Shown: positions 5,285 through 58,443 of the stretch, one piece after another | How positions within the stretch are numbered: the first letter of the stretch is position 1 | How the letters are laid out: each line of letters begins with the position of its first letter | Assembly: GCA_947303085.1 (NCBI GenBank) | Contig: CAMYXP010000002.1 | Span: forward strand, 62,001-126,000 | Length of the DNA stretch: 64,000 nt | From: an uncultured Bacteroidales bacterium | Lineage (GTDB): Bacteria > Bacteroidota > Bacteroidia > Bacteroidales > F082 | Direction of reading: 5' to 3' | Program-made: the position numbers and the translations under genes | Notes under the pieces: generated by a model | Database searches by the model: none | The model's input: only the letters and a program-made list of their open reading frames with translations | Told to the model about the DNA's origin: nothing

Positions 5285-6886
5285 TTAATTTTTCAGATTT
5301 ATAGTTGTTCCTTTGGTTTGTTTAGGTACATTCCATGATTCTTTATTAGGTGAGACTAAATAACCACTAGCTTGAATTGATTCAAGATGGCCATAATCAT
5401 CTACTGATATTGTTAGTTTTTTATATCCATAACCTTTTACCTGTCCTATATATTTACCGTTAATATAAATGTTTCTTGGATCCGAGTGTCTGTTTTCAAA
5501 ATTTATATAATAGACATAAGAGTCCTGTAATTTCTTATACTCAGAATCGGTATCATCTTTAAAAACATAATAATCTGGCTTACCATAAGGTTTCAACACT
5601 ATATCATTATATATCCATCCTGTTTTATAACTGTTTTTATCAATTATTTTTATTGATCTTGTTCTTTCTGGAATCCTTTCAAAAAACAGAGAATATTCCC
5701 ATATACCCTTCCCGATATGTTTATAATCTTTATTATCCGAGTATATCTTAACTATATTAATATTTGAAGCATTTTTTAGTTTATAATGTCTTCCTGTTAC
5801 TATATCCTCGATGTATGAATCCGCACCTATACCAATTACTTGAGTGTCTGATAATGACAAGTATTTGAATGTGACTTTTGTGTAGTTGTCTTTATTTTCC
5901 AAACTAATTAAAAAGCTTTGATTATTGCCATTATCTCCATAAGCACATGTAGAATATTCTTGTTGAGAATATTGTTCCTCTATTTGCTGTTGTCTTATTC
6001 GTTCTTGTTCTAATAAATCATCATAAACTTTTTGAGTATTATCCTCAAACACAAATGTATTTTCATCTCCATAAGGTTTTAAAACAATATCTTTATATGC
6101 CCAACCATTTGGCTCAATAATTCTGATGTGCTTGGTATCTTCTGTTATTCTATTAAAAATAAATGAATACTCCCAAATACCTTTCCCAATTGATGTATAT
6201 CGTGTATTACCAGAATCCATGATATTAATATTTGATGCATCAACTAAATAATACTTTTCGTGAGTATCTATATCTTCAATATATGTACCCCGATTAATGC
6301 CAATTCTTGCATTCGGACTTACTGATACGTATTTCATACTTACGATAGTGTAAGAATCTCTATTCACAATTTTAACAATAAAACTCTCGTTTCCACCATT
6401 ATCACCATATGCATATGTGGAGAATTCTTTTGTATTTCCTATTAATTCATCTGCCACCGCTTCAGAAACAGACATAAGCTCTCCCAACGATTTCAATTCT
6501 GATGATTTCCTTGCTGTTTTCCAAACTCTTTGAGTTCTTATATCCAAAAGACGAGAAACAATGTAATATTCATCACCGAATTTTGTTATTTCTGCTACAC
6601 AAACATTGCTTGCACCATATTTCTGACCGAGTTCAAACAACTTTTTATCATCAATATTATTATATCGACCTTGCTCTTGCGATACTTGTGCCAAGAAATC
6701 ATCTGTTCTTTCAATTGCCACGTAATCTGGATTTCTTGTAATGGCAGCTACCAATTCACTGCCTAAAATTCTTTTTGTTTCTTGTGGAACGCCTTCGCTT
6801 GCTGTCACGTAAACCGCGACTGTCTTTTGGGCAAATGATATCATTGATAACATCAAACCCAGAATTAATGTAAATACTTTTTTCAT
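5285..6886 (-). CDS. Secreted protein with CsgG/TolB-like N-terminal region and tandem duplicated C-terminal domain
   Basis: Signal peptide MKKVFTLILGLMLSMISFAQ; duplicated 'S.[CY]AYGDNG..SF'...'GKGIWEYS..F.RI'...'KDIVLKPYG' modules. Confidence 0.6.
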   Translation of the reverse strand: MKKVFTLILGLMLSMISFAQKTVAVYVTASEGVPQETKRILGSELVAAITRNPDYVAIERTDDFLAQVSQEQGRYNNIDDKKLFELGQKYGASNVCVAEITKFGDEYYIVSRLLDIRTQRVWKTARKSSELKSLGELMSVSEAVADELIGNTKEFSTYAYGDNGGNESFIVKIVNRDSYTIVSMKYVSVSPNARIGINRGTYIEDIDTHEKYYLVDASNINIMDSGNTRYTSIGKGIWEYSFIFNRITEDTKHIRIIEPNGWAYKDIVLKPYGDENTFVFEDNTQKVYDDLLEQERIRQQQIEEQYSQQEYSTCAYGDNGNNQSFLISLENKDNYTKVTFKYLSLSDTQVIGIGADSYIEDIVTGRHYKLKNASNINIVKIYSDNKDYKHIGKGIWEYSLFFERIPERTRSIKIIDKNSYKTGWIYNDIVLKPYGKPDYYVFKDDTDSEYKKLQDSYVYYINFENRHSDPRNIYINGKYIGQVKGYGYKKLTISVDDYGHLESIQASGYLVSPNKESWNVPKQTKGTTINLKN

Positions 6887-6946
6887 ATCGAATAATTTTT
6901 AATTATTAATTGCAATTTGACAAATAAAAAACCGCGAGCTTCTGTT

Positions 6947-7079
6947 TATACCCGAGGTTCGCCAAAACCTGTACTACAAACAAGAAAGCCCACGGCAAAA
7001 CCGTGAGCGTTTCATGCTTTCACGTGTAGTACGTTTGAAATTGGCGATTTCGGGTATACTATGAAAAGCGGAAACGCTT
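6947..7079. ncRNA. Candidate structured RNA / repeat element, copy A
   Basis: Nested helices TATACCCGA/TCGGGTATA, TCGCCAA/TTGGCGA, GTACTACA/TGTAGTAC, CACGG/CCGTG, AAGCG-GAAA-CGCTT; same architecture as 58170-58315. Confidence 0.55.
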
Positions 7080-7240
7080 ATTTACAAATAATACTTATTT
7101 CTATTTCTTCATTTTTTCTTATTTTATCAGCGCAAATTTACAAATTATTTTGAATTCTCGCAGTTATTTTGATTATTTTTAATTGTCGTTTGTTTGTTAA
7201 AACATTTTTGTTATTTTTGCAATGATTAATTATACTTAAT

Positions 7241-23837: not shown

Positions 23838-23864
23838 TATCTATTTTTTTGCAAAATTACAAAA

Positions 23865-23956
23865 AGACTTTAGACTTTAGACCTTAGACCTTAGTTTTTT
23901 TCGGCAATTTGGCTAAAGTCTAAGGTCTAAAATCTAAGGTCTAACGTCTAAGGTCT
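23865..23956. repeat. Inverted arrays of 7-bp repeat (GACTTTA / TAAAGTC family)
   Basis: AGACTTTAGACTTTAGACCTTAGACCTTAG ... CTAAAGTCTAAGGTCTAAAATCTAAGGTCTAACGTCTAAGGTCT. Confidence 0.85.
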
Positions 23957-23992
23957 TCAAAAAATATGTATTTTTGCAAAAATTTTCATTTC

Positions 23993-32042: not shown

Positions 32043-32149
32043 CGTCATTTCGACTGTAGCGTAGCGAAACGGAGAAATCCCCTGCAATAAAGCAATTACT
32101 CTATTTGTAGGGGATTTCTCGACTTCACTTCGTTTCGCTCGAAATGACG
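32043..32149. repeat. REP-like long inverted repeat (GTCATTTCGA family)
   Basis: CGTCATTTCGACTGTAGCGTAGCGAAACGGAGAAATCCCCT ... AGGGGATTTCTCGACTTCACTTCGTTTCGCTCGAAATGACG. Confidence 0.85.
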
Positions 32150-49629: not shown

Positions 49630-49682
49630 TTATTAATATTTTTGCAAATATACAAAAAAAATGTATATCAATTCATTGTATT

Positions 49683-49783
49683 TGTCATTTCGAGCGAAAC
49701 GAAGTGGAGTCGAGAAATCCTATTCAAACGTTAACATTAATAAAAAGATTTCTCCATTTCGCTCCGCTACAGTCGAAATGACA
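49683..49783. repeat. REP-like long inverted repeat (GTCATTTCGA family)
   Basis: TGTCATTTCGAGCGAAACGAAGTGGAGTCGAGAAATC ... GATTTCTCCATTTCGCTCCGCTACAGTCGAAATGACA. Confidence 0.85.
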
Positions 49784-49794
49784 ACAAGCACAAA

Positions 49795-53514: not shown

Positions 53515-56500
53515 TTATCTAACAACAATTTTCTGAGTTTTAATATCTGTTCCAACCAAACGAAGAACGTAAACGCCTTGAGCGTTGACATTGATTAATT
53601 CAGTGCCATTGACGTTTTGTGTTGAAACCATGCGACCAATTACGTCGAATATTTGCAATTCGCCTTCGCCGCTAACAATTATATCTGAACCATTCTGGTA
53701 TGCGAAGATGTCTTCACCATTGTTGTCGTAGTTAGGCAGATAGCCGAGATGTACAATGAAGCGAGCTTCGCTGTCTTGTGGTGAGCCTATGAAGCTGTAT
53801 TCACCTTCGAGCAACATATCGATGTCCTCGCCAGTCATGCGGTCGATGACATGGAGATAATTGAACTCGCCCTTTGTCTTGAAGCTAAGCTTGTACTGTC
53901 CCATTGTCATAGCCTTGAAGTTGAGGTTAAATGACTGAGTATTATCAGCCATTGTTGCAACGGCAAAGCTTTCGCCATCTTTAGGGATGTAGATTTGCTG
54001 GATATTTGAATTGCGGTGGTTAATCTTGTTAAGACCATGACCTTCGTCGAACAATGCAAATGTCACATCTTCGTACTGGTTGTTGGCAACGATAAATTTG
54101 ATATAGTCGTTGTTGGCTCTTCCTTTACTAGATTGTGCTGTTTTGTGAATATATGCATCACCAGCAGTTGTTGCCTGAACGAGGAATCCTTGACATGGTG
54201 CGATTTCATCATCATTTTCTGCAGTGAGTTTAGTGGTCCATGCATCTTCGCCAGTAAGGACATAACATGCATCTAATGTGTTACCATCAGCAACAACATG
54301 TTTCAATGTAATGTTGTGTGAATATGGGTTGCCGAGGAGAGCGAAACCTCTAAGACCTTCTACGCTTGCATCTACTGTTAATGATTGCTTATAGCTTTCA
54401 GCGACGTTGATAGTACCGGCAAACTCCAAAGCATCGGTATCACCTTTTCTATATAAGTAACCACGACCTTCTTCAAACATATCATCATCGAAACCAGCCC
54501 CGATACTATTTTCCCAAGTCATTGTGCTTTCTTTGTAACGATAAATATCGTATAATCTATTATCGCCATCCATTGGCTTGAGGTTTTCAACATCACCAAA
54601 ACCAGTTGAACTTGTTGGAGTTGAAATGGTGTACCAGCCAGTTTTATTTTCTGAATCCCATGCTTTGTCGATATTCTTTTTGATAGTGGCTACCACTGCG
54701 TTGGGGCAATTGAGCTGACCACCGTCTTCGATGATGAGTTTGGCATAGCCCAAATTGTTCGTCAGCACATTTTCACCCATATCCAACGTCTTGCCGCTCG
54801 GGATGATGGAAGGACCTGTAATAGTGACTTTGTCCGTGACGGTCTCGTTCACGAACACGCGAGTGTAGTAGGTAGTTGTACCCAAAGAAACAACAACTTC
54901 CTTGTAGAGCTGGATGGGCTGCTGACTATAATCCTTGTAATAGCGGAAACGATAATTGGATACTCCAGAAGCATTATTAAATCTTAATGCAACTGTATTA
55001 CTAGCACTTCCAAGAATATTTACACATTCGTTTTCATCATTATAACTGATTGTATTTTCATACGCAGTGGCATCACTAGAATTCAATCCATTGCTATAAG
55101 CTGTTTTTCCAATGTAATAGCCGCTTGCACTTTGGATGGAATACCCATTTTCATAGGTATCAATGGTGAAGATAGAACCATTAACATCATCATCAGAATT
55201 GATAATACCATTGCTAATAGTTACTCCTATGACATTATGTCCACCATCTAATTCAGTCAAACTGCCATCAAAAGCAACGCTTTCATATTCTTGTACAATC
55301 AGATAGTTGCCTCTCCAGTCTTGGAGGTCTTCGGTGACTTTCTCGTAATAGGCTTCACGACCTTCGATGCGGGCATACACGGCATAGAAAATCTCATCGC
55401 CTTGGATGGTCACTTGAGCGCCCGCAGCCATAGGCGTATCGATGTTGGCAGGAGTGGTGGTCCAACCAGCAAAGCTGAACTCGCTGTCCAAATCCTCACC
55501 AACGGGGAGCGTGAGCGTATTGGAAAGCACTTGGGCTTGGGTTTCTACACCATTTTCAGAATAAGTGATGTTATAGACCGAAACCGCCGTAACGGTGATG
55601 GTAACATTTTGTGCAGGCATGTTGAAAGTATAGAGCCCGCCCTCAATATCATCCACATGATTGACGTCGTTCACCATCAGTTCGCTGATGGCGTAGCCTT
55701 CTTCGGCGCTAACGCTGAGGGCAATCGGAGTGCCTTCGGTGACTTGGGCGGCATCCTCGCCTTCAAACAAGGAGACCCAATTGTTATCATCGGGGTCGGT
55801 GGCATCGAAGACTTCGATTCCAGCATGGCTCACGCTGGTGACTTCGAGGGTGTATTGCTGGGCTTGGTGAGGCGTCCGGGAAACAATTTGGCAACCTTGG
55901 TTGAACTCATAAATTGAGTTGTTATAAAGAGTCATTGAGCCAGAAACCACAACAACATCGCCAACAGCGACATAGGCGGCATCATTACCTCCGCAACGAT
56001 AAGCACGCAAGTATGCTTGATCGCCAACTGCATCCACCATGTCGAACGTGACATTAGAAAATTGTGAATCATATGCTGTTACAATACTAGAAACAATACC
56101 AGTCACATAAGCATCTGCAACATTGTGATTAGCGGCATTGTCAATAGCATCAATGGCATCAGCCACACTCATCGGAGTAACCACCGAGCCGTTGAGGGCG
56201 ATGGTAACCGAAGTGGCGCCTGTGGACGAAAGGGTGAGCGTACCCGTAGGATTGCCCGTCTGGTTGGCCTTCATGCGAACCCAAATAGTAGTGGAAACTT
56301 CACCGTTAGATTCAGCGAGGGTGAGTGAATTGGTATAAGTGCCATTCTCGGCAGTCGAAATCTCGAAAACGCTGTTGGCACCGACCGATGCAGTAATATC
56401 ATCAGTAAGGTTAGCACCTGTAACGGCAACCGACTGGGCAGCACTCGGATCGGTGCTGGTGCTCAGGCAAGAGAAAGTGTTCAGCGTGGAAGGGCTGGCT

Positions 56501-57945
56501 GAAATGGTAGGAGTAGAACCTGTTGACTCGATTGTAACAACAATTGATGCAACACGGGCTTGGCCATTAGCATTGAACGCAACCGACGAGGCATCACCTA
56601 TCCAAGTTCCAACATTATTATTGGTTGTATAGCTGCCCGTACTACCAGAAGCAACCGAGAGCCTACTCACATGATTAGAAGTATTATTTCCACCATCGAA
56701 GATGATCTTAGTGATGGTATATCCAGCAGCCACAGAAATGGTTGTAGTGGAACCAGAATAGAGGCGATATTGAGCGGTGGCAAAAGCAGCATCGCTACCA
56801 TAGACAGTAACACCACCCTTTTGCATCTCATCAGGAGAGTTATTACCAGATGAAGTACCTGTTTCCGTTCCAGCGGTGAAAGTCACATCAGTGCCAGTTG
56901 ACGGGGTATTGTCGACGACGGTGAGTTGATAAGTGTCGGAGGAAGTAGCATAGGTTTGGTCTCCAGCATAAGTGGCAGTAATATTGGTTGTACCGACAGC
57001 CACAAGGGTGACAGCGCCAGTCTGGTCGACAGTTGCCACGTCAGTGTTGCTCGAAGCCCAAGTGACAGTGGCACCGCTGATGTTGGTATTGTTTACGTTT
57101 TCCTTCACAGAAGCACTCAACGAACCGGCAGCTGGGCCGTTTTGAAGGTCTGTATTGGTGAGGTAGGTGTCGTCGATGGTGACAGTGGTGGCAGGCAGGA
57201 AGGTAGCACCGACATACACATCCTCGTCAGGCATGGTGAAACTCCAAGTGCCATTATTATTGTTGGTAAGTTGATAGGAAGTGGAGCCTTGGCCAATGAC
57301 ATCCATTGAACCTAGAACATAGTTCGTAGCGGGCTGGGGAGTAAGGGTTACAGAAACACCTTGGGCAGCTGTTTCATGGCTTGATTGAACCGTGCCGTTC
57401 ATCATCGAGTTAATTGTAATATTATGAGTGGTACCACCTCCTCCATTATCAGTAGTTGTAATAGAAATACTGTGCATATACATGGAATTGGTCGAGCAAT
57501 TCACTACAAAAGTCACCGTTCCCGACACTGGAGTTGCAAATTTCAAGTCATAATCTGCAAATTTTGAATTTGTAGAAAGAGAGCATATTGTTTGTGCAGT
57601 TCCTCCGCCAACGCTAATTGTTATATTGCCGACGCCTTTTGAAGTGGTAGCTGCATTCACAGAAATCTTAGTAATGTTAGAAAAAGAGTTTTTACTTGTG
57701 GCTCCTGCACCAGTATAAGAAGCATTAGCTGTTACTTGAACACAGCCTCCTCCAATGGAGGATTGGTATGATTGTCCCGCTTTGTTGCAAGTCCATGAAT
57801 TATTGGCATCTGTCCAATTAGCATTGGTTATCCAATTATACGTTGTCACAGTTTCCGTTTTTGTTTGTCCCCACCCTGCCATTGTCGGCATCATGAAGAC
57901 CAGCAGCGCGAGAGCTGCAAACAATTTTGTAAATGTTTTTTTCAT
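53515..57945 (-). CDS. Large secreted T9SS type A sorting domain protein with Ig-like and DUF5689-like regions
   Basis: Signal peptide; BIG2-like SSNTDVATVDQTGAVTLVAVGTTNITATYAG; C-terminal LQIFDVIGRMVSTQNVNGTELINVNAQGVYVLRLVGTDIKTQKIVVR. Confidence 0.9.
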   Translation of the reverse strand: MKKTFTKLFAALALLVFMMPTMAGWGQTKTETVTTYNWITNANWTDANNSWTCNKAGQSYQSSIGGGCVQVTANASYTGAGATSKNSFSNITKISVNAATTSKGVGNITISVGGGTAQTICSLSTNSKFADYDLKFATPVSGTVTFVVNCSTNSMYMHSISITTTDNGGGGTTHNITINSMMNGTVQSSHETAAQGVSVTLTPQPATNYVLGSMDVIGQGSTSYQLTNNNNGTWSFTMPDEDVYVGATFLPATTVTIDDTYLTNTDLQNGPAAGSLSASVKENVNNTNISGATVTWASSNTDVATVDQTGAVTLVAVGTTNITATYAGDQTYATSSDTYQLTVVDNTPSTGTDVTFTAGTETGTSSGNNSPDEMQKGGVTVYGSDAAFATAQYRLYSGSTTTISVAAGYTITKIIFDGGNNTSNHVSRLSVASGSTGSYTTNNNVGTWIGDASSVAFNANGQARVASIVVTIESTGSTPTISASPSTLNTFSCLSTSTDPSAAQSVAVTGANLTDDITASVGANSVFEISTAENGTYTNSLTLAESNGEVSTTIWVRMKANQTGNPTGTLTLSSTGATSVTIALNGSVVTPMSVADAIDAIDNAANHNVADAYVTGIVSSIVTAYDSQFSNVTFDMVDAVGDQAYLRAYRCGGNDAAYVAVGDVVVVSGSMTLYNNSIYEFNQGCQIVSRTPHQAQQYTLEVTSVSHAGIEVFDATDPDDNNWVSLFEGEDAAQVTEGTPIALSVSAEEGYAISELMVNDVNHVDDIEGGLYTFNMPAQNVTITVTAVSVYNITYSENGVETQAQVLSNTLTLPVGEDLDSEFSFAGWTTTPANIDTPMAAGAQVTIQGDEIFYAVYARIEGREAYYEKVTEDLQDWRGNYLIVQEYESVAFDGSLTELDGGHNVIGVTISNGIINSDDDVNGSIFTIDTYENGYSIQSASGYYIGKTAYSNGLNSSDATAYENTISYNDENECVNILGSASNTVALRFNNASGVSNYRFRYYKDYSQQPIQLYKEVVVSLGTTTYYTRVFVNETVTDKVTITGPSIIPSGKTLDMGENVLTNNLGYAKLIIEDGGQLNCPNAVVATIKKNIDKAWDSENKTGWYTISTPTSSTGFGDVENLKPMDGDNRLYDIYRYKESTMTWENSIGAGFDDDMFEEGRGYLYRKGDTDALEFAGTINVAESYKQSLTVDASVEGLRGFALLGNPYSHNITLKHVVADGNTLDACYVLTGEDAWTTKLTAENDDEIAPCQGFLVQATTAGDAYIHKTAQSSKGRANNDYIKFIVANNQYEDVTFALFDEGHGLNKINHRNSNIQQIYIPKDGESFAVATMADNTQSFNLNFKAMTMGQYKLSFKTKGEFNYLHVIDRMTGEDIDMLLEGEYSFIGSPQDSEARFIVHLGYLPNYDNNGEDIFAYQNGSDIIVSGEGELQIFDVIGRMVSTQNVNGTELINVNAQGVYVLRLVGTDIKTQKIVVR

Positions 57946-58063
57946 ATTTTGTTTGTTTAGTTTTAGTTAGTTATTATTTTGTTATTTCTATTTTTCTTTA
58001 TACTTGCTTTAACCACCTTACCGCGGCTGCCTTAAGGCCTTTAATGGCGTTAATGGCTTTAAA

Positions 58064-58132
58064 GCCTTTAAGGGTGCCGCTGTAACGCCCTTAAGGATGC
58101 CGCTGTAACGCCTTTAATGGTGCCGCCTTAAA
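58064..58132. repeat. Three tandem ~23-bp repeats upstream of large T9SS gene
   Basis: GCCTTTAAGGGTGCCGCTGTAAC / GCCCTTAAGGATGCCGCTGTAAC / GCCTTTAATGGTGCCGCCTTAAA. Confidence 0.75.
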
Positions 58133-58169
58133 ATGAAAAAGGCGTCGGCTGCTTCTTCGTCCGCTTATC

Positions 58170-58315
58170 GTTGTTGAGGTATCGCCAAACACCTACCATG
58201 ATAATAAGCACGAAACAACCCACGCCAAATAGCGTGAGCTTTCCGCATTCTTACTCCATCATGGTATTTAAAAACTGGCGATTTTCAACAACCTGGAATA
58301 AGAGCGCAAAGCTCT
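58170..58315. ncRNA. Candidate structured RNA / repeat element, copy B
   Basis: Helices GTTGTTGA/TCAACAAC, TCGCCA/TGGCGA, TACCATGAT/ATCATGGTA, CACGC/GCGTG, AGAGC-GCAAA-GCTCT; same architecture as 6947-7079. Confidence 0.55.
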
Positions 58316-58443
58316 GTTTTTTAATATGTTACAATTTTATCTTCTACACAATCTTTTTGTTTTACAATAGCGATTTTTCGCGGTGCAAAATTAGCATTAA
58401 TTTTTAAATTACAGATGTTATATTAATAAAAATTTACAAAAAA

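Follow-up and report, generated by a model that had tools for sequence, protein, structure and literature searches.

What are the two long foldable sequences that precede two minus-strand genes in the window (the whole 64,000-nt stretch of Bacteroidales DNA that was analysed), and what do they do to the genes behind them? A preliminary description had proposed them as copies A and B of a structured RNA family, but it understated the case: the strand, the alternative terminator fold, the U-tract, the wide spread of the family and its targets other than secreted proteins were all missed. It is likely that the element is a cis-acting leader RNA of about 150-180 nt that works as a transcription attenuator, in which an antiterminator and a terminator compete co-transcriptionally, and it probably controls whether the gene behind it is transcribed. 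This reading draws on sequence statistics for the RNA strand, both folds, the U-tract, the leader position and the breadth of the family.

The element is composed of four strands that can pair in two ways, each excluding the other (Table 1). Fold 1, the long hairpin of the preliminary description, combines the 2:3 helices (P3/P4) with P2 and with 1:4 (P0/P1); it would sequester strand 3 and act as the antiterminator, with the gene on. Fold 2 combines 1:2 with 3:4, and the 3:4 stem followed by the U-tract would constitute an intrinsic terminator, with the gene off.

Table 1. Positions in the window of the parts of copies A and B and of the genes that follow them
Copy	Feature	Position	Strand	Sequence or remark
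A	Whole element	6926-7079	minus	5' arm to U-tract
A	-7 promoter box	7133-7140	minus	TAAATTTG; sequence of the Bacteroidetes type TAnnTTTG
A	Short upstream ORF	7101-7112	minus	ATG AAG AAA TAG (family norm ATG-NNN-stop)
A	Strand 1	7051-7079	minus	5' arm AAGCGTTTCCGCTTTTCATA and P1 5' strand GTATACCCG; 1:2 and 1:4 pairing tested
A	P2 5' strand	7038-7050	minus	TCGCCAA, AAA/UUU on flanks; loop of hairpin P6 in fold 2
A	Strand 2	7001-7032	minus	P3 5' strand and P4 5' strand (CGCTCACGG)
A	Strand 3	6971-6995	minus	P4 3' strand (CCGTGGGC) and P3 3' strand; partner strand 2 (putative antiterminator) or 4 (putative terminator)
A	Hairpin P5	6955-6970	minus	AGGTT[TTGGCG]AACCT, loop = P2 3' strand
A	Strand 4	6932-6954	minus	P1 3' strand CGGGTATA and predicted terminator 3' strand AACAGAAGCTCGCGG
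A	U-tract	6926-6931	minus	TTTTTT
A	Downstream gene	5285-6886	minus	533-aa exported protein without a Pfam family; start codon ~40 nt past U-tract
B	Whole element	58136-58316	minus	5' arm to U-tract
B	-7 promoter box	58386-58393	minus	TAATTTTG
B	Strand 1	58285-58316	minus	CAGAGCTTTGCGCTCTTATTCCAG and P1 5' strand GTTGTTGA
B	P2 5' strand region	58270-58286	minus	GAAAATCGCCAGTTTTT
B	Strand 2	58232-58265	minus	P3 and P4 5' strands, end GCTCACGC
B	Strand 3	58195-58225	minus	P4 3' strand GCGTGGGT and P3 3' strand
B	Hairpin P5	58177-58194	minus	AGGTGT[TTGGCG]ATACCT
B	Strand 4	58141-58177	minus	P1 3' strand TCAACAAC and predicted terminator 3' strand, end GACGCC
B	U-tract	58136-58140	minus	TTTTT
B	Downstream gene	53515-57945	minus	Exported protein, 1476 aa, with Big_2 domain

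Every stem named in the preliminary description is present, and both copies fold far better than shuffled sequences, with z-scores on the plus and minus strands of -5.4 and -6.3 for copy A and -5.9 and -6.8 for copy B (0 of 200 shuffles as good for either). The transcribed strand, left uncertain there, is the minus strand, which folds better and in which G·U pairs vastly outnumber A·C. The paired columns of P4 give G·U to A·C ratios of 128:2, 113:3 and 37:1 in three alignments, and as G·U is kept while A·C is almost absent, the element is an RNA with a fixed strand. The claim that the helix bases differ between A and B holds for P1 and P3, but the TCGCCA/TGGCGA helix (P2) is essentially the same in both. 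AAGCG-GAAA-CGCTT, which had been taken for a separate hairpin, is really the 5' arm (strand 1) of the larger switch. The start codon behind copy B is farther away than that behind copy A because AAGGCCTTTAATGGCGTTAATGG-type repeats intervene (58018-58137). Other repeats of the window are inverted-repeat arrays of AGACTTTAGAC/CTAAGGTCT at 23846-23982 and 2673-2765, and intergenic inverted repeats, whose ends are GTCATTTCGA and whose cores are GAGAAATC, at 32043-32149 and 49682-49784, which look like a dispersed palindromic repeat.

Searching with a pattern built on the P2 helix that A and B share brought up another copy in this genome (L003) and several dozen further copies in 150 related genomes; these were taken out with their flanks, and a covariance model (R1) was built from 43 copies. 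This genome holds nine copies, and 13 other genomes gave 2 to 38 matches each with the covariance model at E <= 0.1, including a few antisense matches to copies already counted. Under strict filters, 30 genomes in a phylum-wide sample of 250 contain a match. Among the matches listed, 146 non-redundant copies belong to Bacteroidales, other Bacteroidota and some Lentisphaerae/Kiritimatiellae records; the named records include Prevotella, Hoylesella, Dysgonomonas, Rikenellaceae, Muribaculaceae, Paludibacteraceae, Sunxiuqinia, Winogradskyella and Psychroserpens, as well as Lentisphaerae and Kiritimatiellae bins, metagenome bins being prone to misassignment. Cultured hosts of the element are Hoylesella loescheii, Dysgonomonas capnocytophagoides and Winogradskyella haliclonae. 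In three loci (L049, L057, L091) the element occurs in pairs of the same orientation, 0.8-3.1 kb apart.

The proposal of a functional RNA family with maintained pairing is borne out by very strong covariation. In the R1 alignment 94% of cells are paired and the covariation score is 0.53, compared with 0.18 for shuffled alignments and at most 0.10 for slid structures. Compensatory change is strong in P1, P2 and P4 across the family, with two-sided changes in all eight P1 pairs (model R1, 43 copies). P2 was invariant by construction in the first set because the copies had been collected via its sequence; once covariance-model matches remove this bias it varies with compensation, also in other copies of this genome (TCTCCA/TGGAGA, TCGACA/TGTCGA, CTGGTA/TACCAG, GTGAGAA/TTCTCAC and others). 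Alignment by sequence alone (MAFFT) fails on P3, so that its covariation was assessed through the 2:3 duplexes instead of column by column. A homologue of the gene behind copy A, in genome G033, is 66% identical over 292 residues, and its leader keeps switch strands 1-4 largely unchanged with P1, P2 and P3 swapped for other complementary sequences. The P1-P3 helices therefore look either free to drift or selected to differ, a possible reason for the latter being avoidance of trans pairing among the copies of one genome.

These data also bear on whether the element is a mobile repeat, such as a MITE-like insertion or a transposon end, or an attC-like recombination site acting as single-stranded DNA. 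Several copies per genome would suit a mobile repeat, as would the 38 matches (E <= 0.1, a few antisense) in a single fragmented genome, some of them close to contig ends, and the presence of the element on eight IMG/VR viral contigs (L283-L290). A MITE or transposon end would not, however, be expected to show covarying helices that have no primary sequence in common, nor a fixed orientation and distance to the gene, and the G·U to A·C asymmetry of 128 to 2 fits RNA rather than an attC-like DNA site. The MITE, insertion sequence and attC readings were rejected on these grounds as extremely improbable, in agreement with the earlier view that the element is no simple insertion repeat. On the IMG/VR contigs the element is followed by genes for secreted-type proteins and, judged by eye, one apparent type I restriction subunit.

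The absence of a named Rfam family was likewise confirmed: Rfam 15 gave no match in the window at gathering threshold, the element is unmatched in 38 other loci, and the best hits at relaxed thresholds, rnk_leader (17.6 bits) and Afu_304 (20.6 bits), lie far below threshold. In one locus a DUF805 RNA (RF03081; L041:3390-3458, minus strand) stands directly 3' of the U-tract of the element, placing two leader RNAs in tandem.

The argument for attenuation starts from what lies 3' of P1. In nearly every copy examined, the P4 5' strand is repeated there and is followed by a U-tract. The repeated segment (strand 4) is complementary to the P4 3' strand (strand 3), and the 5' arm (strand 1) is complementary to strand 2. 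In the 3:4 stem 83% of cells are paired, as opposed to 29-55% in slid versions, and it has accumulated 67 two-sided changes compared with 22 in shuffles. A run of at least five T follows strand 4 in 84% of copies and in 4.8% of random 18-mers; in some copies the U-tract is interrupted (UUUCUUUUU). A predicted intrinsic terminator, stem and U-tract, is thus placed between promoter and start codon.

Duplexes 1:4, 2:3, 1:2 and 3:4 formed within a copy are better than those formed with its five nearest relatives (p from 1e-13 to 5e-24), an advantage also seen against random partner copies, whereas the control pairings 1:3 and 2:4 are no better within the copy than with the five nearest relatives. 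The copy-specificity of all four duplexes indicates that {1:4, 2:3} and {1:2, 3:4} are both maintained, although the four tests are not independent, since in a switch of this layout 1:4 and 2:3 already imply part of 1:2 and 3:4. The antiterminator and terminator would be mutually exclusive, 2:3 and 3:4 being copy-specific and having strand 3 in common. An H-type pseudoknot, in which strand 4 would pair with P4 while P1-P3 are formed, was discarded, as it would demand a linker bridging ~25 bp and as P5 offers a nested alternative.

Fold 2 contains two short hairpins, P5 and P6, whose loops are the P2 strands and are complementary over 6-7 nt. P5 (AGGYN...NRCCU) covaries (GTGT/ATAC, GCGT/ATGC, GGTT/AACC, GGTA/TACC, GGCT/AGCC); P6 (GAAA(U)...(A)UUUC) occurs in roughly 60% of copies, mostly as invariant A/U, and is missing from some subfamilies. 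In 82 of 166 copies both hairpins have stems of 4 bp or more, where shuffled flanks predict 0.4. The complementarity of the loops suggests that they may come into actual contact.

Pairing in P5 and P6 explains most of the bases that seem conserved and unpaired in the long hairpin. It is these bases, AAA/ACC and UUU/GGU around P2, that would form the pocket of a ligand riboswitch whose metabolite controls the terminator. The terminator/antiterminator layout and the position in the 5' leader match such a riboswitch, but the conserved unpaired bases are few and largely accounted for by fold 2, and P1, P2 and P3 are freely replaced, so that even the helix beside the supposed pocket changes. The downstream genes have no common pathway and the element matches no Rfam riboswitch, which makes this explanation very unlikely. 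A T-box was rejected in view of the unrelated genes and the lack of an Rfam match.

Nearest-neighbour energies favour fold 1 by ~10 kcal/mol, and it is the more stable fold in nearly all copies; at equilibrium the terminator is formed in just 3% of copies. Predicted folding of the nascent transcript gives 1:2 first in 95% of copies, and 2:3 then replaces it as strand 3 and P2' emerge. Fold 2 would consequently need kinetic trapping, a factor, or a loop-loop stabilisation that lies outside the energy model. The stability of fold 1, which brings the two ends of the element together by pairing, could also point to a role in mRNA stability or translation, with the long hairpin as a shield for the 5' end or an insulator of the leader and the U-tract as no more than a partner for the A-rich 5' arm. 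This does not account for the presence of the P4 5' sequence again in strand 4, or for the covariation of that strand with the P4 3' strand. For duplexes between the U-tract region and the distal A-rich 5' arm, partners from one copy (-5.6) are barely better than partners from different copies (-5.0), and this pairing was set aside. Taken together, a stability element is distinctly unlikely.

Attenuation, the preferred reading, places the element between a promoter and a gene. In 108 of 132 testable copies an ORF of at least 100 aa begins on the same strand no more than 300 nt downstream, compared with 26 of 122 in the divergent control, and the median gap from U-tract/element to ORF start is 56 nt. 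Upstream, TAnnTTTG occurs in 96 of 143 copies on the element strand and in 23 on the other. An ATG followed by no or one codon and a stop is found in 57 of 143 copies (~40%), more than twice the 21.6 (sd 3.4) in shuffles, with a positional peak 50-55 nt before the model start; the stop is exactly one codon on for 55 of 151 ATGs, compared with 7-17 at other offsets. Examples of AUG-NNN-stop are ATGACATAA, ATGGGCTGA and ATGGTATAA, with variable middle codon and stop, and carriers include L089, L129, L237 and the Prevotella loci L164, L180 and L218. More than half of the copies have no mini-ORF, and some have a TSS-proximal hairpin or a AAGAAACAGA motif instead. In one subclass (L043, L063, L085, L227, L229) the promoter abuts the element and a small variable 5' hairpin, e.g. 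GTTCTTAGGAAC or GTCTCTCGGAGAC, replaces the mini-ORF region.

The enrichment of this mini-ORF would be expected if the ribosome were the input of the attenuator. A ribosome on AUG-NNN-stop would keep strand 1 off strand 2 and so allow 2:3, turning the gene on when mini-ORF termination is slow or translation is inhibited. Against this special case of attenuation, the mini-ORF is missing from over half of the copies, including copy B, which has no ATG mini-ORF upstream, and its stop lies ~20 nt before strand 1, so that a terminating ribosome would hardly cover that strand. A trp-type leader peptide with regulatory codons over strand 1 was not found, as the mini-ORFs end before it. Control by the ribosome is, on balance, unlikely.

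That both copies stand upstream of genes for secreted proteins, as described earlier, is a trend of the whole family: an N-terminal hydrophobic segment, a crude heuristic for export rather than a SignalP call, is present in 69% of downstream proteins and in 33% of the other ORFs of the same loci (p = 8e-12). The remaining targets comprise type III methyltransferases, PLD-SNF2 helicases, small HTH-like proteins and a methyl-accepting protein, so that restriction-modification and helicase/defence genes are among the non-exported ones. In several sampled Bacteroidia outside Bacteroidales the downstream gene is, by eye, TonB-dependent-receptor-like, and in one sigma-factor-like. The 115 downstream proteins fall into 71 Pfam families, none represented in more than four, and no coherent regulated gene set or pathway was found among them. 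Such varied genes give no hint of the input signal.

It is proposed that in the growing transcript hairpin 1:2 would form first, followed by 2:3. As the terminator is rare at equilibrium, termination would require 1:2 to persist until strand 4 is made; we infer that termination does occur and that its outcome is set by 1:2 forming first and by the timely arrival of strand 4. The gene would be switched on by whatever opens or blocks strand 1 or leaves enough time for the strands to exchange. Because the loops of fold 2 are complementary, contact between them could set off the change to fold 1, which would resemble the pairing of an antisense RNA with its target but inside a single molecule. The input presumably acts on strand 1 or on folding speed, candidates being an RNA-binding protein, RNA polymerase pausing and, in the ~40% of copies that have it, a ribosome on the AUG-NNN-stop mini-ORF.

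The four-strand logic is that of trp-type attenuators, in which 1:2 and 3:4 alternate with 2:3. The element likewise would build an exclusive terminator and antiterminator from four leader strands, with a U-tract after 3:4, but it has no regulatory leader peptide of repeated codons, its large and mostly conserved architecture precedes unrelated genes, and its two hairpin loops are mutually complementary. In this last respect it resembles the kissing-loop antisense systems of plasmids (ColE1 RNA I/II, CopA/CopT, pT181 attenuation), which also have two hairpins with complementary 6-7 nt loops, a contact that can extend to full strand exchange, and variable, co-varying specificity sequences. Unlike these, the two partners of the element reside in cis in one molecule and plasmid copy control is not involved. 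Terminator-type riboswitches and T-box leaders have the leader position and the terminator/antiterminator expression platform in common with it, but the element has few conserved unpaired bases from which a ligand core could be built, its genes have no common pathway, and it has no Rfam match. DUF805 RNA (RF03081), of an Rfam class that is cis-regulatory and with one copy adjoining the element, is a separate and shorter motif of 68 nt that does not match the element itself.

The palindromic Bacteroidetes candidate RNAs of Fremin and Bhatt (2021; PMC8040213), e.g. HMP2_4205, are terminator-like and, compared by description only, could overlap with the element; the main-text section that presents them contains no switch model. 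A search of openly readable main texts found no description of the element. The family and its architecture appear to be new, with a possible overlap with those candidates, and attenuation itself is a known kind of control.

A broader and tentative possibility, doubtful at present, is that the element is a phylum-wide, modular 'self-antisense' leader, i.e. a hairpin and its own cis antisense hairpin joined by a loop-loop contact, which would serve as a folding timer and would sense not a metabolite but the speed of transcription or a folding factor. P1, P2 and P3 would then have diversified against trans pairing between copies, and exported-protein and restriction/defence genes would have one general control module in common. 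The combination of a hairpin and its antisense hairpin in one molecule would provide a clean natural system for the study of co-transcriptional strand exchange. If attenuation holds true, the input would be directly testable in the cultured hosts that carry the element. The nine copies of this genome belong to a family that precedes genes for surface and secreted proteins, lipoproteins, TonB-type receptors and restriction or helicase proteins, and under attenuation this large set of accessory genes would share one RNA device.
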